IMG/VR virus record: IMGVR_UViG_3300009684_000138
Span: 1-27,943 of that record
Length of the DNA: 27,943 bases
From: a virus
Strand: one strand, 5' to 3'
How positions within the stretch are numbered: the first letter of the stretch is position 1; every line of letters starts with the position of its first letter. The notes under the pieces were generated by a model. It was not told where the DNA came from. It searched no databases and worked only from the letters and a program-made list of their open reading frames with translations. The position numbers and the translations under genes are program-made. This document shows, piece after piece, positions 47 to 6,212 of the stretch.

Positions 47-122
47 GCTACCTTAGCTCAGTTGGTAGAGCAATGAACTAGTAATTCATAGGCCGTCAGT
101 TCGAATCCGACAGGTAGCACCA
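47..122 (+). tRNA. tRNA-Thr (anticodon AGT)
   Basis: Full cloverleaf: acceptor 47-53 pairs with 112-118, D arm 56-71, anticodon stem 73-77/85-89, T arm 95-111 with one A.C mismatch, and encoded CCA at 120-122. The seven-base loop 78-84 places the anticodon AGT at 80-82, reading ACU. G1-C72 and C2-G71 agree with known threonine identity elements in E. coli. An A at the wobble position is unusual, since bacteria normally use A34 (as inosine) only in tRNA-Arg(ACG) and sometimes tRNA-Leu. Confidence 0.9.
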
Positions 123-197
123 TCCTAACTTAGTGTTGTTGGTCAGCACGGCTGATTGTGGATCAGCAAGACTAGGTTCGAATCCTAGAGTTAGGAC
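123..197 (+). tRNA. tRNA-His (anticodon GTG)
   Basis: Directly abuts the CCA of the preceding tRNA. Acceptor 123-129 pairs with 190-196. The anticodon stem GCTGA/TCAGC encloses a loop with GTG at 158-160. C197 sits at the discriminator position, as expected for His. No G(-1) is encoded (base 122 is A, the last base of the upstream CCA), and a full CCA is not encoded, so both ends would need processing and addition enzymes. Confidence 0.9.
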
Positions 198-214
198 CAT
201 TTTGGAGAATGATT

Positions 215-436
215 ATGTTACTAGATGTTGAGTTTGTTAAAGTTCCAAAAGACTTTCAACAGGTGGGTAAGGAGCTTGCTGCTATTATGATTGATGTTGG
301 TTTTGCCAAGTCAAAGACTGAGGCTAGGAACCACATCAAGGGTGGTGCAATTAAGATCAACGATCAAAAAGTTGTTGATCCTTTTGCCAGACTGTGTCGT
401 GAAGATAATAAATACTATCTAGTCGAGTATGAATGA
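215..436 (+). CDS. free-standing S4 RNA-binding domain protein (TyrRS C-terminal type)
   Basis: A 73-residue protein that is essentially one S4 domain. The core is the pattern SKTEARNHIKGGAIKIN followed by KVVDP, as in the C-terminal tRNA-binding domain of bacterial tyrosyl-tRNA synthetases; the catalytic domain is absent. The S4 fold binds structured RNA, often tRNA or rRNA. ATG 215 is chosen because GGAG at 204-207 lies seven bases upstream, whereas ATG 209 is too close. It sits between tRNA-His and tRNA-Tyr and ends eight bases before tRNA-Tyr. A role in binding or chaperoning the phage tRNAs, or in altering host TyrRS activity, is inference. It could also be a general RNA-binding protein. 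Confidence 0.75.
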   Translation: MLLDVEFVKVPKDFQQVGKELAAIMIDVGFAKSKTEARNHIKGGAIKINDQKVVDPFARLCREDNKYYLVEYE

Positions 437-443
437 AACTTTT

Positions 444-526
444 GGGTAGACGGCGAAGTTGGAGAGTCGCGGGGGACTGTAAATCCTCTTCTTAAAGATG
501 AGTTGGTTCGAATCCATCTCTACCCA
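444..526 (+). tRNA. tRNA-Tyr (anticodon GTA)
   Basis: Acceptor 444-450 pairs perfectly with 519-525 and A526 is the discriminator. The anticodon loop CTGTAAA holds GTA at 479-481. A long variable arm of about 13 bases makes it class II, as expected for bacterial tRNA-Tyr. The T arm has the standard TTCGAAT loop. CCA is not fully encoded (ACAT follows). Confidence 0.92.
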
Positions 527-534
527 CATAAGCG

Positions 535-585
535 CCTCAGTTGTATAAATAGCAATGTCAATAAGACTGCTTATACAACTGAGGG
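535..585 (+). promoter_or_regulatory. late promoter inside an RBS-hiding hairpin (homing endonuclease leader)
   Basis: A perfect 14-bp inverted repeat (535-548 with 571-584, loop 22 nt) contains the exact T4-type late promoter TATAAATA at 544-551 across its 5' arm. The 3' arm ends in GAGGG (581-585), the ribosome binding site of the gene starting at TTG 593. Read-through RNA from the tRNA operon would fold and hide the RBS. RNA started at about 557 from the late promoter lacks the 5' arm and leaves the RBS open. This is the arrangement known for T4 I-TevI. The layout is seen; its function is inferred. Confidence 0.75.
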
Positions 586-592
586 TCAGCGT

Positions 593-1234
593 TTGCTTTA
601 TACAATTTATAAGATAACAAATAAAATAAATCAAAAATATTATATCGGAATGCATCAAACCAAAAATCTTGATGATGGTTATATGGGTTCTGGTAAGCTT
701 ATTAAAGCTGCTATTCAGAAATATGGATTTGAGAATTTTGTAAAAGAAATTCTATATGTTTTTAATAATGAAAAAGATATGAAAACCAAAGAAAAAGAAC
801 TTGTTGTTTTGAATGAAATGAGTTATAATCTTTGTGAAGGTGGGCGTGGTGGATTTAGTTTTATCAATAAAAATTCACTTAATTATAAATTTACAAAAGA
901 AGAATCGAAAAAAGCAACTACAGAGCGTTTATTTAATCCAGATAAAAAAGAAAAATGGTTAAGAGCCTATTATAATTCAATAAAAACGCCTGAACATAAA
1001 GCGAAAATGAAATTTGTATCTCGATGGATGATTGGCGATAATAACCCATCTAAAAGACAAGATGTGAAAGATAAAATTAGTAAAGCTAAAAAAGGAAAAT
1101 CATCTGGTGTTGGAGTAAAAAATTCTCAATATGGTACTTGTTGGGTAACGAACGGTCAAGAAAATAAAAAAATTAAAAAAGAAGAGCTTGACAACTTCAT
1201 TGAATTAGGTTATTATAAGGGTAGGATATTATAA
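593..1234 (+). CDS. GIY-YIG homing endonuclease
   Basis: A 213-residue protein. Residues 3-19 hold the GIY-YIG core in variant form (TIY, then YYIG), followed by the DDGYMGSGK stretch typical of phage endonucleases of this family. The C-terminal half has a NUMOD3-like DNA-binding segment (NPSKRQDVKDKISKAKKGKS) and a closing WVTNG...GYYKGR motif, also seen in phage homing endonucleases. The start is taken as TTG 593 because GAGGG at 581-585 is seven bases upstream and the GIY motif should lie near the N terminus; the open frame extending back to 503 overlaps tRNA-Tyr. It is Lys/Asn-rich and very AT-rich relative to its neighbours. It probably cuts intronless or allelic phage DNA to spread itself within the tRNA cluster. 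Confidence 0.85.
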   Translation: MLYTIYKITNKINQKYYIGMHQTKNLDDGYMGSGKLIKAAIQKYGFENFVKEILYVFNNEKDMKTKEKELVVLNEMSYNLCEGGRGGFSFINKNSLNYKFTKEESKKATTERLFNPDKKEKWLRAYYNSIKTPEHKAKMKFVSRWMIGDNNPSKRQDVKDKISKAKKGKSSGVGVKNSQYGTCWVTNGQENKKIKKEELDNFIELGYYKGRIL

Positions 1235-1239
1235 AATAT

Positions 1240-1340
1240 GGACTTGATGCTTTGGAGTTCGATTCTCCTTTATCACTGGAGCGTGAGAGTTGTGGTAACG
1301 GGGCAGTACACCCCACCAAGTTCGATTCTTGGCAAGTCCA
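1240..1340 (+). ncRNA. 101-nt tRNA-like element of unknown type
   Basis: The ends pair as a perfect 7-bp acceptor (GGACTTG 1240-1246 with 1333-1339), and a normal T arm (CCAAG-TTCGATT-CTTGG, 1316-1332) precedes the 3' strand. The interior does not fold as a tRNA. A second T-arm-like hairpin (GGAG-TTCGATT-CTCC, 1254-1268) sits where the D arm should be. The only anticodon-like hairpin (GGGG-CAGTACA-CCCC, 1305-1319 region) lacks U33 and leaves almost no variable loop. It is about 28 nt longer than a standard class I tRNA, and its 3' end is ACTA, not ACCA. It could be a rearranged pseudo-tRNA, a tRNA mimic, or a tRNA with an internal duplication. Confidence 0.45.
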
Positions 1341-1369
1341 CTAAGTTTGCAAGAGGAACTACTCAATAA

Positions 1370-1446
1370 GCCTGTTGGGCGGTATTGGCTATCGCACAGT
1401 CCTCATAAGACTGCTAAAGTTGGTTCGATGCCAACAACAGGCACCA
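1370..1446 (+). tRNA. tRNA-Met or tRNA-Ile2 (anticodon CAT)
   Basis: Acceptor GCCTGTT 1370-1376 pairs with AACAGGC 1436-1442. D arm GCGG/TCGC, anticodon stem CAGTC/GACTG with CAT at 1404-1406, T arm GTTGG/CCAAC, encoded CCA at 1444-1446. The paired 1-72 end and lack of three G-C pairs in the anticodon stem argue against an initiator tRNA. CAT could be elongator Met, or Ile2 reading AUA after lysidine modification, which is common in AT-rich phages; sequence alone does not decide. Confidence 0.9.
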
Positions 1447-1461
1447 GATAAAGGATATATA

Positions 1462-1947
1462 ATGAGAAACATTTTTGTAATTTCTGATACTCATTTTGGT
1501 CACGCTAATATCATAAAATATTGTGATAGACCTTTTGCGACTCTTTTTGAGATGGATGAAAAAATCATTGAAAATTGGAATTCAGTTGTAAAGACCGAAG
1601 ATATCGTGTATCATCTAGGTGATGTTTATTTTGGAAAAAATAATCCTTCTAATTTCGCCAATCGTTTGAATGGACGTAAACGACTGGTTCTTGGAAACCA
1701 TGATAATGGTAAAGATGAAATTCTTCATACTATGTTTGAAAAAATTATGGTGTGGAGAATGTTTCCTGATTTTGGTTTGCTTTTAACTCATGTTCCTGTC
1801 CATCATGGATCGCTTGAGAATAAAGTTTCCAAGAATGTTCATGGTCATATTCATGACAAAGTTATTGATGATGATAGGTACATCAATGTTTCTGTAGAGC
1901 AGATCAATTATACACCCATTAATATCGAATCTATTAGGGTTAAATAA
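1462..1947 (+). CDS. calcineurin-like metallophosphoesterase
   Basis: A 161-residue phosphoesterase with the full metal-binding series: SDTHFGH (D9, H11), LGDVYFG, GNHDNG, THVPVHH and HGHIHD. This compact type is common in tailed phages, where the substrate (phosphodiester, nucleotide or phosphoprotein) is usually unknown. The start is ATG 1462, with AGGA at 1452-1455; the longer open frame would run back through tRNA-Met. It lies between tRNA-Met and tRNA-Pro, so it is transcribed with the tRNA cluster. It is distinct from the LpxH-like enzyme at 24130, which is longer and belongs to another branch of the superfamily. A role in RNA or nucleotide metabolism is possible but not shown. Confidence 0.82.
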   Translation: MRNIFVISDTHFGHANIIKYCDRPFATLFEMDEKIIENWNSVVKTEDIVYHLGDVYFGKNNPSNFANRLNGRKRLVLGNHDNGKDEILHTMFEKIMVWRMFPDFGLLLTHVPVHHGSLENKVSKNVHGHIHDKVIDDDRYINVSVEQINYTPINIESIRVK

Positions 1948-1952
1948 AATAA

Positions 1953-2031
1953 CAGCCAGTAGGGGAGTTTGGTCGTCCCCGCAACCCTTGGAAGGTTGAG
2001 ATCGAAGGTTCAAATCCTTCTTGGCTGACCA
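1953..2031 (+). tRNA. tRNA-Pro (anticodon TGG)
   Basis: Acceptor CAGCCAG pairs with TTGGCTG (last pair G.T). The C1-G72 pair is a known proline identity feature. The GC-rich D arm uses GGGG/CCCC. Anticodon stem CAACC/GGTTG encloses TGG at 1989-1991. T arm GAAGG/CCTTC with loop TTCAAAT; CCA encoded at 2029-2031. Confidence 0.93.
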
Positions 2032-2037
2032 ATTAAT

Positions 2038-2113
2038 GCCGACTTGGTGAAGGTGGTACTCACGCTAGTTTGAAGAACTAGAGAACCCTGATCGTAACGG
2101 GGAGTCGGCACCA
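2038..2113 (+). tRNA. tRNA-Phe (anticodon GAA)
   Basis: Acceptor GCCGACT (2038-2044) pairs with AGTCGGC (2103-2109). Anticodon stem CTAGT/ACTAG with loop TTGAAGA giving GAA. CCA encoded at 2111-2113. The T loop reads ATCGTAA, so the normally invariant T54 is A; the T stem has one T.G pair. Confidence 0.9.
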
Positions 2114-2115
2114 TA

Positions 2116-2147
2116 TATAAATACTTCTACAGTAATTGTAGAGGTAT
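2116..2147 (+). promoter_or_regulatory. late promoter plus RBS-hiding hairpin before the HNH gene
   Basis: An exact late promoter TATAAATA (2116-2123) directly follows tRNA-Phe. A stem of about 9-11 bp (from 2121-2131 with 2137-2147, loop of 5, one G.T pair) places AGAGG (2140-2144), the RBS of the gene at 2152, in its 3' arm. The 5' arm starts within the promoter, so late transcripts starting near 2129 lack most of it while read-through transcripts carry it all. The logic is the same as at 535-585. Confidence 0.65.
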
Positions 2148-2151
2148 TACT

Positions 2152-2559
2152 ATGCCAAAAGGCGTTTATCCTAGAAAGAAAAAAAAACTATATCTCGAAT
2201 CAGTTCGGGATTCTCAAGTTGGCCATGGTATGGAAAGATCACCACATTGGCCAACTGTTCAACATGCACATTTAAAACTTGAGCCAACCTGTGCTGCATG
2301 TAATGGTGAATTGAATTTAAATGTCCATCACAAAAAACCATTCCATCTATTTCCAGAATTAGAATTAGAACCTACCAATCTCATTACTCTTTGTATGGAC
2401 GGTGATAAAGATTGTCACATTAAGCTAGGACATGGCGGTGATTTCAAAGCCTACAATCCAAATGTTATGGAAGATGTTGCAACTGTTAAATCTAATTTCA
2501 GTATGGAACTACTGACAGAAACAGCCGTTAAAGCGAAAAAAACTAGGCTTTTAACTTAA
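2152..2559 (+). CDS. HNH endonuclease
   Basis: A 135-residue HNH nuclease. A zinc pair CAAC (about residue 47) precedes the core VHHKKPFHLFPELELEPTNL, with NLITLC and then a CH pair; the C-terminal motif GHGGDFKAYNPNV is typical of a phage HNH family. Such enzymes nick or cut DNA using one metal ion in the beta-beta-alpha fold. It is free-standing between tRNA-Phe and tRNA-Ser with its own late promoter and hairpin leader, which fits a homing endonuclease in the tRNA cluster. A role in packaging or recombination is possible but less likely in this position. Confidence 0.85.
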   Translation: MPKGVYPRKKKKLYLESVRDSQVGHGMERSPHWPTVQHAHLKLEPTCAACNGELNLNVHHKKPFHLFPELELEPTNLITLCMDGDKDCHIKLGHGGDFKAYNPNVMEDVATVKSNFSMELLTETAVKAKKTRLLT

Positions 2560-2564
2560 TAATA

Positions 2565-2654
2565 GGAGAGTTGGCCGAGAGGTTTAAGGCACACGTTTGC
2601 TAAATGTGCGAAGGCGAAAGTTTTCCGTGGGTTCGAATCCCACACTCTCCGCCA
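2565..2654 (+). tRNA. tRNA-Ser (anticodon GCT)
   Basis: Class II tRNA. Acceptor GGAGAGT (2565-2571) pairs with ACTCTCC (2644-2650), discriminator G2651, CCA 2652-2654. Anticodon stem CACGT/ATGTG encloses TTGCTAA with GCT at 2599-2601. The long variable arm closes with GGCGAAAGTTTTCC. It is very similar to the tRNA-Ser at 2794, so the two are probable duplicates that diverged in anticodon. Confidence 0.93.
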
Positions 2655-2662
2655 TATAAATA
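2655..2662 (+). promoter_or_regulatory. late promoter TATAAATA before tRNA-Trp
   Basis: Exact late-promoter octamer beginning at the base after the CCA of tRNA-Ser. A start site about six bases downstream would give a transcript beginning just before tRNA-Trp (2673). It could supply tRNA-Trp and the tRNAs after it late in infection. Chance occurrence in AT-rich sequence cannot be excluded. Confidence 0.55.
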
Positions 2663-2672
2663 AAAAAAATAC

Positions 2673-2746
2673 ATCAGTGAAGTGTTACGGTAGCACATCG
2701 GTCTCCAAAACCGAGAGCGTAGGTTCAACTCCTACCACTGATGCCA
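2673..2746 (+). tRNA. tRNA-Trp (anticodon CCA)
   Basis: Acceptor ATCAGTG (2673-2679) pairs with CACTGAT (2736-2742). G2743 is the discriminator, as in bacterial Trp tRNAs, and CCA is at 2744-2746. Anticodon stem TCGGT/ACCGA with loop CTCCAAA gives CCA at 2705-2707. T arm GTAGG/CCTAC. Confidence 0.93.
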
Positions 2747-2755
2747 AAATAAATC

Positions 2756-2784
2756 TTGACAAAATTATCAAGATTAGGTAGAGT
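2756..2784 (+). promoter_or_regulatory. sigma70-type promoter before tRNA-Ser(TGA)
   Basis: TTGACA at 2756-2761 and TAGAGT at 2779-2784, spacing 17. The -35 is perfect and the -10 matches 4 of 6. It would start transcription at or just ahead of tRNA-Ser(TGA) at 2794. It shares the TTGACA box with the promoters at 3412 and 22359. Confidence 0.6.
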
Positions 2785-2793
2785 TAAATTATT

Positions 2794-2883
2794 GGAAGTG
2801 TGACCGAGTGGTTTAAGGTTCTGGTCTTGAAAACCAGCGAAGGCGAAAGTCTTCCGTGAGTTCGAATCTCACCGCTTCCTCCA
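2794..2883 (+). tRNA. tRNA-Ser (anticodon TGA)
   Basis: Class II. Acceptor GGAAGTG (2794-2800) pairs with CGCTTCC (2873-2879) with one T.G pair. Anticodon stem CTGGT/ACCAG with loop CTTGAAA gives TGA at 2828-2830. CCA encoded at 2881-2883. The discriminator is T rather than the G usual for serine. The variable arm is nearly identical to that of the tRNA-Ser at 2565. Confidence 0.92.
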
Positions 2884-2888
2884 TAACA

Positions 2889-3007
2889 TGCCCTTTAGCG
2901 TTGAAACAGACTAGGGTGATAGTGAATGATTCTCTCCTATCTGGCCAGATTAATGGGAGACGCTTAAATAACTATCCGTTGCCAAGCTACGATAGTGCTT
3001 GGAGCTA
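2889..3007 (+). other. gene-free structured stretch inside the tRNA cluster (possible RNA)
   Basis: About 120 bases with neither a tRNA nor a plausible gene, but with several strong pairings. TCTCCT/GGGAGA (2933-2938 with 2955-2960) encloses the 12-base palindrome ATCTGGCCAGAT (2939-2950). AGCGT/ACGCT (2897-2901 with 2960-2964) can enclose both. Two interleaved 6-bp pairings follow: ACTATC/GATAGT (2971-2976 with 2991-2996) and CCAAGC/GCTTGG (2982-2987 with 2997-3002). They overlap in the pseudoknot pattern or represent alternative hairpins. It may be a structured RNA processed from the tRNA transcript or remains of lost tRNA genes. Confidence 0.35.
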
Positions 3008-3011
3008 TTAT

Positions 3012-3087
3012 GCGACGTTCTTCTAACGGCTAGGAATCCAGATTTTCACTCTGTACAATATCGGTTCGAATCCGATACGTCGCACCA
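3012..3087 (+). tRNA. tRNA-Glu (anticodon TTC)
   Basis: Acceptor GCGACGT (3012-3018) pairs with ACGTCGC (3077-3083), A3084 discriminator, CCA 3085-3087. The D-arm sequence TCTAACGGCTAGGA is of the tRNA-Glu type. The anticodon loop TTTTCAC holds TTC at 3045-3047; only four of five anticodon-stem pairs form. T arm ATCGG/CCGAT. Confidence 0.9.
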
Positions 3088-3105
3088 TTATAGGAAAGGA
3101 AATTT

Positions 3106-3330
3106 ATGGCTGACATTTTAAATTTTCCAGATAGACAAAAACCTATCAATAATGTACCAGTTATTGTGCATAACATTAAAAATCGAAAAGAATATTTAAT
3201 GATGTGTAAAGAAATTTTGACCGAAGAAGATTATTTTGATGTTTGCCGTGGAATTCTTGATGATGAGTATTATGAAATACTAGATGAACCATTAAAAAAA
3301 ATTGTGAGTGTTTATTTCACTCACATATAG
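3106..3330 (+). CDS. small conserved phage protein, function unknown
   Basis: A 74-residue acidic protein. The central stretch (residues 26-66) MMCKEILTEEDYFDVCRGIL followed by DDEYYEILDEPLKKIVSVYF resembles small proteins I recall from T4-like cyanophages and related phages; no function is known to me. No signal peptide or membrane segment is visible. AGGAAAGGAAATTT before ATG 3106 gives a strong RBS. Its stop codon TAG (3328-3330) lies within the first bases of tRNA-Ile, so RNA processing of the tRNA would cut the mRNA at its stop codon. Confidence 0.65.
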   Translation: MADILNFPDRQKPINNVPVIVHNIKNRKEYLMMCKEILTEEDYFDVCRGILDDEYYEILDEPLKKIVSVYFTHI

Positions 3331-3403
3331 TCGTTTAGCTCAGAGGTAGAGCACTGTCCTGATAAGACAGGGGTGGAAGGATCGTTACCTTCAACGACTA
3401 CCA
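3329..3403 (+). tRNA. tRNA-Ile (anticodon GAT)
   Basis: Acceptor AGTCGTT (3329-3335) pairs with AACGACT (3393-3399), A3400, CCA 3401-3403. Anticodon stem CTGTC/GACAG with loop CTGATAA gives GAT at 3361-3363. The T stem GAAGG/CCTTC carries loop ATCGTTA, again with A in place of T54, as in tRNA-Phe at 2038. The first two bases are also the last two bases of the upstream gene's stop codon. Confidence 0.92.
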
Positions 3404-3411
3404 AATATCGC

Positions 3412-3439
3412 TTGACATTGGGTATTTTGTATATATAAT
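3412..3439 (+). promoter_or_regulatory. consensus early promoter (TTGACA-N16-TATAAT)
   Basis: Perfect -35 TTGACA (3412-3417) and perfect -10 TATAAT (3434-3439), spacing 16. The start would be near 3446, giving a short leader of about 25 bases before the gene at 3470. The same hexamers and spacing recur at 22359. The spacer carries the 15-bp repeat found at 10-24. It likely uses the host housekeeping sigma factor early in infection. Confidence 0.85.
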
Positions 3440-3469
3440 GTACTGATGAATACATCAATGGAGGTTAAT

Positions 3470-3670
3470 ATGTCTGGTTATCGTTTTATCGTTCAATACG
3501 ATATTAAGCATGTAAAGAAGACTTCTGCTCTGTATGGTCTTCTAACGACACAAACTGTCAAGTTTCCCTCATTGCAATCTGCAATGTCTTTTGTTCGTGA
3601 TATGAAGGGAAAGAAGACAACTAAGTTTGAAGTTATCGGGATGCCCATCATTGAAAGGATTGCGTCATGA
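3470..3670 (+). CDS. small early protein, function unknown
   Basis: A 66-residue basic protein. I do not recognise a family. It has no membrane segment; a mixed helix/strand composition with QYDIKHVKK near the start and IGMPIIERIAS at the end. ATG 3470 is chosen because GGAGG (3460-3464) lies five bases upstream; an in-frame ATG at 3446 has no RBS and would coincide with the expected transcription start. It is the first gene behind a consensus promoter and overlaps the next gene by four bases, so it is likely expressed immediately after infection, as is typical of host-takeover genes. That role is inference. Confidence 0.65.
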   Translation: MSGYRFIVQYDIKHVKKTSALYGLLTTQTVKFPSLQSAMSFVRDMKGKKTTKFEVIGMPIIERIAS

Positions 3671-3924
3671 TTAAGCGTATTGTATTGTCGATTATATTGT
3701 TTCTTGCTTTTCTTGGACCTGTAATAGCTCAACATCATCATCGCCATGCTCCACAACAACACCGTAATTCCGGTGGTTTTGGTACTGCACTTGGTCTTAG
3801 TCTTTTGGGGCTTGGTGTGGCTGGCGCATATTATTATAACCATCAACTTCCCCCAACATGTTGGAAAGAAATAGTTGGTTATGACCGTTATGGTCGGGAG
3901 ATGTGGGAAGTGACATGTCGTTGA
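3667..3924 (+). CDS. small exported His-rich protein
   Basis: An 85-residue protein translationally coupled (ATGA overlap) to the gene before it. Residues 1-21 form a signal peptide (basic MIKR, hydrophobic core, VIA cleavage site). A His-rich stretch HHHRHAPQQH follows, then a Gly/Leu/Ala hydrophobic segment (about 38-55) that may be a second membrane span, and a C-terminal part with two cysteines (TCWKE and VTCR) that could form a periplasmic disulfide. No family recognised. Early expression of an envelope protein suggests superinfection exclusion or envelope modification, in the manner of T4 Imm/Sp, but there is no sequence evidence for that link. Confidence 0.65.
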   Translation: MIKRIVLSIILFLAFLGPVIAQHHHRHAPQQHRNSGGFGTALGLSLLGLGVAGAYYYNHQLPPTCWKEIVGYDRYGREMWEVTCR

Positions 3925-3931
3925 ATCTTAT

Positions 3932-4006
3932 TCAAGAATAGTTTAATGGTAGAACGACAGACTTTGAATCTGTTAAGTCTAGGTTCGAATCCTAGTTCTT
4001 GATCCA
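3932..4006 (+). tRNA. tRNA-Gln (anticodon TTG)
   Basis: Acceptor TCAAGAA (3932-3938) pairs with TTCTTGA (3996-4002), discriminator T4003, CCA 4004-4006. The anticodon stem ACAGA/TCTGT encloses CTTTGAA with TTG at 3964-3966. T arm CTAGG/CCTAG. Last tRNA of the cluster, followed at once by a terminator. Confidence 0.93.
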
Positions 4007-5405: not shown

Positions 5406-5434
5406 TTGACAAATAATGGACTGCATACTAAATA
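5406..5434 (+). promoter_or_regulatory. possible promoter of the small heat-shock gene
   Basis: TTGACA at 5406-5411 is a perfect -35. The -10 is weak: TAAATA at 5429-5434 (spacing 17), matching 3 of 6, or an overlapping alternative. If used, the transcript would start near 5441, inside the dyad at 5435-5467. Confidence 0.4.
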
Positions 5435-5467
5435 ATATCATGTAGTGCCTAATGGACTACATGATAT
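5435..5467 (+). promoter_or_regulatory. 12-9-12 inverted repeat at the heat-shock gene start region
   Basis: Perfect 12-bp arms ATATCATGTAGT (5435-5446) and ACTACATGATAT (5456-5467) with a nine-base spacer. It overlaps the expected transcription start, so it may be an operator, or a leader hairpin in read-through RNA. The nine-base spacer is like the HrcA operator CIRCE, but the arm sequence is not CIRCE. No T run follows, so it is not a terminator. Confidence 0.5.
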
Positions 5468-5471
5468 ATAC

Positions 5472-5487
5472 CTCGCTTAAATAGGAG
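5472..5487 (+). promoter_or_regulatory. ROSE-like RNA thermometer over the heat-shock RBS
   Basis: The leader just before the small heat-shock gene has CUCGCU (5472-5477) pairing with the RBS AGGAG (5483-5487) across a five-base loop. Pairs are C5472-G5487, U5473-A5486, C5474-G5485, C5476-G5484 and U5477-A5483, with G5475 unpaired. The U-Y-G-C-U anti-RBS motif with one extruded G is the hallmark of ROSE elements, which control ibpA/hspA-type genes in rhizobia and enterobacteria. The downstream gene is exactly that family. Melting at higher temperature would free the RBS. Function is inferred from motif and context. Confidence 0.6.
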
Positions 5488-5495
5488 AATTAAAA

Positions 5496-5993
5496 ATGAA
5501 TGCATGGAAAATCGACCATACTTTTGCTGATATGGAAAAGTTTAATAAGTTTTTTGTTGGCTCAGATAAGTTTGCTGCCAAGATTCAAGAAACAGTTGAT
5601 CATATTTCTAAGACTTCAGTAGGATATCCGCCATTCAACCTCAAGAAGGTTGATGAAAATAAGTATGTTGTTGAGGTTGCTGTTGCTGGATTCGGCAAGC
5701 AAGACGTTGAACTTACTCTTGAAGATAATAAGCTTTTCATCAAGGGGTCTACTACACTTGATACATTGACTCAAGATGGTATTGACGTACAATATCTACA
5801 TAAGGGAATTGCTGATCGTTCTTTTACTCGCACTTTCACTCTTGCTGATAACGTCGTTGTGAATAATGCACAAATGATCAATGGTCTTCTAAAAATTTGG
5901 CTGGAACATGTTATTCCAGAAAATAAGAAGCCCAAGAAAATCGATATTACGGATGCTAATCAACCGGATAATCGAGAATACCTCAAAGGTTAA
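5496..5993 (+). CDS. hsp20: small heat-shock protein, Hsp20/alpha-crystallin family (IbpA-like)
   Basis: A 165-residue sHSP of the IbpA/HspA class, near the usual length. Seen: YPPFNLKKVDENKYVVEVAV (about residues 45-64) opening the alpha-crystallin domain, AGFGKQDVELTLEDNKLFIKG, then GIADRSFTRTFTLADNV and GLLKIWLEHVIPE at the end of the domain, and a short C-terminal tail. It acts as an ATP-independent holdase for unfolding proteins. Phage copies are frequent in T4-like cyanophages, where a role in keeping virion or replication proteins folded has been suggested. It has its own leader with a ROSE-like hairpin and is closed by a strong terminator, so it is a single-gene unit. RBS AGGAG at 5483-5487, start ATG 5496. 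Confidence 0.92.
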   Translation: MNAWKIDHTFADMEKFNKFFVGSDKFAAKIQETVDHISKTSVGYPPFNLKKVDENKYVVEVAVAGFGKQDVELTLEDNKLFIKGSTTLDTLTQDGIDVQYLHKGIADRSFTRTFTLADNVVVNNAQMINGLLKIWLEHVIPENKKPKKIDITDANQPDNREYLKG

Positions 5994-5995
5994 TT

Positions 5996-6021
5996 AAAGG
6001 GGGCAAAAGCCCCCTTTTTCT
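5996..6021 (+). terminator. rho-independent terminator after the heat-shock gene
   Basis: Stem AAAGGGGGC (5996-6004) with GCCCCCTTT (6009-6017), loop AAAA, then a T-rich tail. Strong, compact, and directly after the stop codon of the heat-shock gene. Confidence 0.92.
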
Positions 6022-6038: not shown

Positions 6039-6212
6039 ATGTTTTTTGATTATTTTTCGCATGTATTTGATGTGGCAAAAAAATCAATTCGTTGTACACA
6101 AGCTATCAATGAACTCAATCGTTTAAGTGATCGTGAACTCAATGATCTTGGATTGACTCGTGGTGAAATTTATGCAACTGTATACCTAACAATGTTGATA
6201 ACTGATAAATAG
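6039..6212 (+). CDS. DUF1127-type small protein
   Basis: A 57-residue protein. Its C-terminal half reads INELNRLSDRELNDLGLTRG followed by EI, the signature of DUF1127 (L-x-x-L-S-D-x-E-L-x-D-I-G-L-x-R-x-D/E-I). The family is abundant in alphaproteobacteria. From memory, members there have been tied to RNA turnover, phosphate and stress responses, and some bind RNA. AGGAG at 6029-6033 sets ATG 6039. The gene lies between the heat-shock terminator and the endolysin. Presence in a phage suggests capture from an alphaproteobacterial host and possible interference with host RNA decay or small-RNA control; that is inference. The frame is short but the motif match is clear. Confidence 0.8.
   Translation: MFFDYFSHVFDVAKKSIRCTQAINELNRLSDRELNDLGLTRGEIYATVYLTMLITDK

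Follow-up and report, generated by a model that had tools for sequence, protein, structure and literature searches.

The leader of the small heat-shock gene hsp20 in a T4-like phage is most likely a short two-hairpin RNA thermometer of the ROSE type, with a temperature response that we infer, and probably allows the phage to raise chaperone production as the infected cell heats up. Many other aquatic T4-like phages, well-known cyanophages among them, have the element too. So far, ROSE elements have been described for bacterial small heat-shock genes. The window, that is the whole stretch of DNA analysed, is a 27,943-base IMG/VR contig and belongs to a T4-like phage (UvsX, family B DNA polymerase). 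It also carries 12 tRNA genes clustered at 47-4006 with small ORFs between them, and a homing-endonuclease-like ORF (by eye) lies inside this cluster at 503-1234.

The motif consists of CTCGCT (5472-5477), the loop TAAAT (5478-5482) and AGGAG, which is followed after 8 nt by the hsp20 start codon ATG at 5496. It is rare, with one match in the window vs 0.03 expected. In the minimum free energy structure, C5472-G5487, U5473-A5486, C5474-G5485, C5476-G5484 and U5477-A5483 are paired and G5475 is bulged. The sequence-only reading had described UCGCU with an unpaired G facing AGGAG across a five-base loop before an IbpA-class gene, and this description proved exact in the letters, in the fold and in the Pfam family of the product (PF00011). 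It did not include hairpin I, a 12-bp hairpin with a bulged G located upstream of hairpin II, and the true extent of the predicted element is about 5430-5498. All features are listed in Table 1. Directly after the hsp20 terminator, a 57-aa DUF1127 protein with its own SD is encoded at 6039-6212 on the plus strand (PF06568, 41.7 bits). Proteins of the DUF1127 family are small and little understood, and a phage-borne member merits a look.

Table 1. Features of the hsp20 unit in the window.
Feature	Position	Strand	Details
TTGACA, exact sigma-70 -35-like hexamer	5406..5411	+	From sequence; -10 poorly matched in the window copy
Whole element, match of phage covariance model R1	5430..5498	+	56.4 bits, E 7e-16 (rough); window copy itself in the seed
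Hairpin I	5435..5467	+	Arms 5435-5446/5456-5467, bulged G5447, inner pairs 5448-5449/5454-5455, loop 5450-5453 (UAAU)
Hairpin II, putative thermosensor	5472..5487	+	CUC[G]CU with AGGAG SD; loop 5478-5482; G5475 unpaired
Shine-Dalgarno (SD) AGGAG of hsp20, predicted to be sequestered in hairpin II	5483..5487	+	Sequence, fold, predicted SD exposure
hsp20 / IbpA-class small heat-shock protein gene, 165 aa	5496..5993	+	PF00011 61.2 bits, E 1e-16; phrog_432 Hsp20
Intrinsic-terminator-like hairpin closing the hsp20 unit	5996..6017	+	

Folded alone, hairpin II was no better than shuffled sequences (46 nt, -2.8 kcal/mol, z 0.18), as would be expected if an ordinary SD faced a complementary stretch by chance. 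It is weak, with -2.4 to -2.8 kcal/mol compared with -4.1 to -7.6 quoted for Pseudomonas (PMC3669281). The full leader (5434-5500) folds far better than shuffles (z -5.8), which is due to the upstream hairpin I (5435-5467). Since the fold energy of hairpin II was not significant, conservation was used as the criterion, and conservation is what makes this predicted feature real. A chance origin has a negligible probability: it was already refuted by conservation in related phages, and covariation, gene association and held-out retrieval likewise contradict it.

With the Hsp20 protein as query, 48 viral loci were retrieved. In these protein-selected loci, CTYGCT-loop-AGGAG was found directly before hsp20, or before a small gene leading into hsp20, wherever upstream sequence was present, and nearly all relatives whose upstream sequence is usable have the element at the head of hsp20 or its operon. 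The UYGCU/AGGA pairing, on whose conservation in related phages the sequence-only reading had staked its claim, is thus kept there. A covariance model, R1, was built from phages only (its E-values are rough, from a short calibration) and matched 42 of the 47 loci searched, nearly all upstream of hsp20; a weak match about 1 kb upstream in L034 was not counted as support. The distant relatives L041 and L043-L047, which lie outside the model, were also matched, more weakly, and represent a variant clade with CUGUC or CGUC replacing UYGCU. Within this clade, L041, L043, L044 and L047 keep hairpin I and place CUGUCU or CGUCU, not CUYGCU, opposite AGGAGG, possibly as a variant thermosensor. R1 was also run on 18 loci from named or single-cell phages, 12 of which were retrieved when the model had already been built. 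The element stands immediately before hsp20 in 17 of the 18 (S-PM2, S-SM2, HTVC008M and others); the sole exception is Vibrio phage IBT_VpB-34, which lacks it at hsp20.

Exact IMG/VR scans for CTCGCTTAATAGGAG and CTTGCTTAACAGGAG, using DNA alone, led back to hsp20-operon genes among the matches listed. In the resulting pool, which includes the 48 protein-fetched loci, the motif preceded an ORF in at least 184 cases among the matches listed; 135 of these ORFs were Hsp20 and 34 were a small leader gene followed by hsp20, while the remaining listed cases were 5 truncated copies, 1 groES (PF00166, 75 bits) and 9 apparently by chance. The leader gene (64-98 aa, MLxxINTxIDTI...) was located between the element and hsp20 in L021 (2715), L084, L052, L060, L032 and about 30 others, therefore the element heads a two-gene operon in many phages. 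Its product is phasin-like by eye and has no Pfam match, and in L110 an EF-hand protein takes its place. The annotated hsp20 starts conflict with the element in L398 (S-SRM01), L392 (S-CAM3) and L401 (S-T4): the start in S-SRM01 falls inside hairpin I, and those in S-CAM3 and S-T4 are about 75 nt downstream of the ATG following the element. Just upstream of hairpin I or of the promoter, a CTGG-ATNAAGTAA-CCAG-like stretch (AGTAACCAGC / AGTAAGCTGG) recurs in L030, L033, L027 and many others.

A set of 75 diverse leaders aligned as two hairpins (alignment A1, which excludes as coding sequence the motif-like TTYGCT...AAGGAG matches in the last part of the small leader gene that precedes hsp20). 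Covariation in A1 was 0.426 vs 0.174 in shuffled alignments (0 of 500 reached it) and at most 0.134 when slid, and the hairpin I pairs 24-45 and 25-44 occur in all four Watson-Crick types. Because helix II was partly pattern-selected in A1, a second set was counted, consisting of leaders chosen by protein alone plus two leaders found by the model. Here covariation was 0.511 vs 0.175 with 92.3% of cells paired, in an alignment fitted to the model and hence leaning towards structure; UYGCU was kept in 67 of 71 protein-selected leaders, with a loop of 3-10 nt (S-PM2 checked by eye). The column of the bulged G5475 is conserved in 73 of the 75 A1 leaders, the two departures being alignment shifts. 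Changes in helix II are mostly C-G/U-G exchanges, with the outer pair varying. Since the SD is fixed, its pairs vary little, so the covariation support comes mostly from hairpin I.

Whole phage records were then considered (24 records, up to 187 kb). A model match was present at the hsp20 operon in 23 of them, all except Vibrio phage IBT_VpB-34 (22.5 bits in S-PM2, 29-68 in the rest), and the head of this operon was the best match in 22. In L234, groES was preceded by the best match (56.5 bits) and hsp20 by the second best (41.7 bits); apart from this groES, no strong match was seen elsewhere in the 24 records. The two copies on L234, a 5 kb viral contig, occupy 799-861 and 2825-2891, before a GroES/Cpn10 gene and hsp20, respectively. 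These scans ruled out the hypothesis of a general motif present at many phage genes. They also bear on the proposal that the structure is the binding site of another regulator, e.g. phage RegA, or a constitutive 5'-end element for mRNA stability or translation with no role in temperature. The gene regA lies just upstream of hsp20 in several cyanophages, and a stable hairpin near the likely transcript start could protect the mRNA; however, in whole phage records the structure hardly occurs outside hsp20 operons, it recurs at bacterial hsp20 genes, and its homology to ROSE_3 points to thermosensing. We regard this proposal as very improbable.

For the favoured thermometer, the following mechanism is suggested. 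A sigma-70-like promoter pair was located just upstream of hairpin I in 28 of 75 leaders vs 4.4 in shuffles, and an exact T4-late TATAAATA in 15 of 75 vs 0.15; with promoters in this place, transcription probably begins at hairpin I or close to it. This hairpin would serve as a stable scaffold, while in hairpin II the AGGAG SD would pair with CUC(G)CU and keep ribosomes blocked at ordinary temperature. Warming would open hairpin II, as we propose because of its bulged G and few pairs, and would increase Hsp20 translation, with melting presumed within the host's range and a benefit expected for the phage under heat. In Pseudomonas, structure probing showed that hairpin II melts and hairpin I stays closed (PMC3669281). 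Between 5 and 50 °C, the predicted SD exposure increased from 0.04 to 0.22 in the window, from 0.01 to 0.23 in a Pseudomonas ibpA leader and from 0.07 to 0.20 in an E. coli-like leader. The mean predicted exposure of 20 control genes of the window was 0.45 with no trend, and two of them were also closed. Known elements gave predicted melting curves as shallow as those of the new ones, and the SD of some relatives (L292, L290) was predicted half open at all temperatures, thus folding is no proof of switching.

The same RNA could also sense proteostasis: free Hsp20 would bind the leader and repress its own translation until titrated away by aggregates, possibly in combination with thermosensing. 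E. coli IbpA represses its own translation via its ROSE-bearing 5'UTR, and for this the protein needs R93, R97 and K98 together with an aromatic side chain at position 34 (PMC10474464). Matched to the E. coli sequence in an alignment made by eye, which weakens the residue assignment, the phage proteins retain counterparts of R93 (R108 in the window, nearly invariant in 17) and of R97 (R112 in the window), as well as an aromatic residue within YPP/FPP. Self-repression would account for the lasting association of the leader with hsp20, but the leader is also present before groES in one phage, and K98, whose change to Ala loses activity (PMC10474464), is replaced by Thr in the protein encoded in the window and is variable among its relatives. 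Such autorepression is a serious competitor to thermosensing or may act alongside it; as a rival it is unlikely.

ROSE-like elements are defined by two to four hairpins and by a U(U/C)GCU whose pairing with the SD is imperfect, with a bulged G (PMC3669281, PMC11182007). The window leader has the SD paired with UYGCU, the bulged G, two hairpins with the SD in the last, and a small heat-shock gene. In the search with the Rfam ROSE covariance models, which had been suggested along with the motif, the window copy was unmatched by any ROSE model, and no ROSE family matched the window leader at gathering or at E<=10, including RF01832 ROSE_2 and RF00435 ROSE; the gathering cut-off of ROSE_3 (43 bits) was not reached, and the best ROSE_3 match in the window (8.4 bits) was elsewhere. 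Weak matches of mir-144, MALAT1 and freshwater-2 in the window leader were far below cut-off and were discarded. ROSE_3 did match other phage leaders in place at sub-threshold scores, i.e. L074 (31.5 bits, E 2.8e-5 for 131 nt), L027 (30.9), phage C48C1 (26.8), P-RSM1 (21.8) and L016 (19.9).

In a bacterial genome collection, 28 of 78 loci had an R1 match ahead of hsp20 (29-54 bits), from marine alphaproteobacterial single cells, SAR86, PS1/OCS116 and Woeseiaceae; one of the 28, L299, is apparently a phage contig binned with Bacteroidetes. Among these 78 loci, no match was found in Sphingomonadales. Of 32 genomes from a single marine alphaproteobacterial order, 24 carried the element, and hsp20 was confirmed at the loci retrieved. 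On 200 Pseudomonadota genomes, R1 gave three matches, namely the starting genome and two canonical ROSE_3 elements (67.1 and 70.7 bits). We take this retrieval by a phage-only model as the best evidence of kinship, and on it we class the putative thermometer as ROSE-type, closest to the short Pseudomonas form. Together with the UYGCU facing the SD, the unpaired G, the small heat-shock gene and the conservation, it bears out the earlier ROSE-like reading.

Two records gave full-strength Rfam matches: ROSE_2 scored 100 bits in L295 (MG065691, Campylobacter phage A11a), a typical enterobacterial ibpA leader, and ROSE_3 scored 69 bits in L298 (OQ572409, Pseudomonas phage Y7), a typical Pseudomonas ibpA leader. 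Both records are labelled UNVERIFIED; such typical bacterial leaders suggest host DNA in the records, and they were used as positive controls only. Co-transfer of the element with a host gene is plausible, judging from its presence at bacterial hsp20 genes. A wider reading is tentative: T4-like phages from the sea and from fresh water may have in common a dedicated ROSE-type chaperone regulon (hsp20, hsp20 with the small leader gene, groES) that senses temperature and protein aggregation together, is tuned to cool aquatic hosts and is traded between phages and marine bacteria.

Across T4-like phages, some of them cyanophages amenable to laboratory culture, the hsp20 operon is headed by the same RNA logic as in bacterial ROSE. 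Whether phages sense heat during infection becomes directly testable, with a bearing on the phage-host balance under ocean warming. R1 supplies a model for annotating similar phage leaders missed by current Rfam families. The Hsp20 of cyanophage S-ShM2 has been purified and its assemblies imaged (PMC5028025, PMC8546028), but no study of the gene's regulation was found in the open-access literature. In two cyanophage small heat-shock protein papers (PMC3827213, PMC5028025), a term search found no treatment of regulation by the leader.

The sequence-only reading knew of no established phage case. No phage ROSE element was found in the open-access full-text literature, and a report elsewhere is possible, but other RNA thermometers in phage genomes are recorded, i.e. 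lambda cIII, SPbeta blyA and the sigma-70 gene of a Caudoviricetes phage (PMC4166951, PMC11182007). They resemble the present element in being phage-borne; unlike it, they are not reported as ROSE and are not at chaperone genes, and lambda cIII is opposite in sense, closing on warming. The Synechocystis hsp17 thermometer, likened here by description, also precedes a small heat-shock gene, in a cyanobacterium, but is a single short hairpin (PMC3669281). The likeness to rhizobial and enterobacterial ROSE that had been noticed in the motif held for motif and gene class, whereas the phage element is larger, with two hairpins, and nearer to Pseudomonas ROSE_3. Rhizobial ROSE (ROSE1, Bradyrhizobium hspA) shares the UYGCU with an unpaired G at the SD and the small heat-shock genes, but has three to four hairpins (PMC3669281) and gave no match here. 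Enterobacterial ROSE_2 (RF01832, E. coli ibpA) shares the UYGCU/SD pairing, the small heat-shock gene and the IbpA-class protein; its upstream architecture differs, it left the window leader unmatched, and it weakly matched only one marine bacterial copy (L385, 23.1 bits). Pseudomonas ROSE_3 (RF02523, ibpA; PMC3669281) has, like the phage element, two hairpins with the small heat-shock gene directly downstream, a hairpin I apex of UGCC...GGG with a bulged G, and a hairpin II in which U(U/C)GCU faces the SD. Compared with it, the phage copies score below gathering (best 31.5 of 43 bits, window copy unmatched), and the phage form is shorter and AT-rich, with a looser hairpin II, is carried by phages and occurs once at groES.
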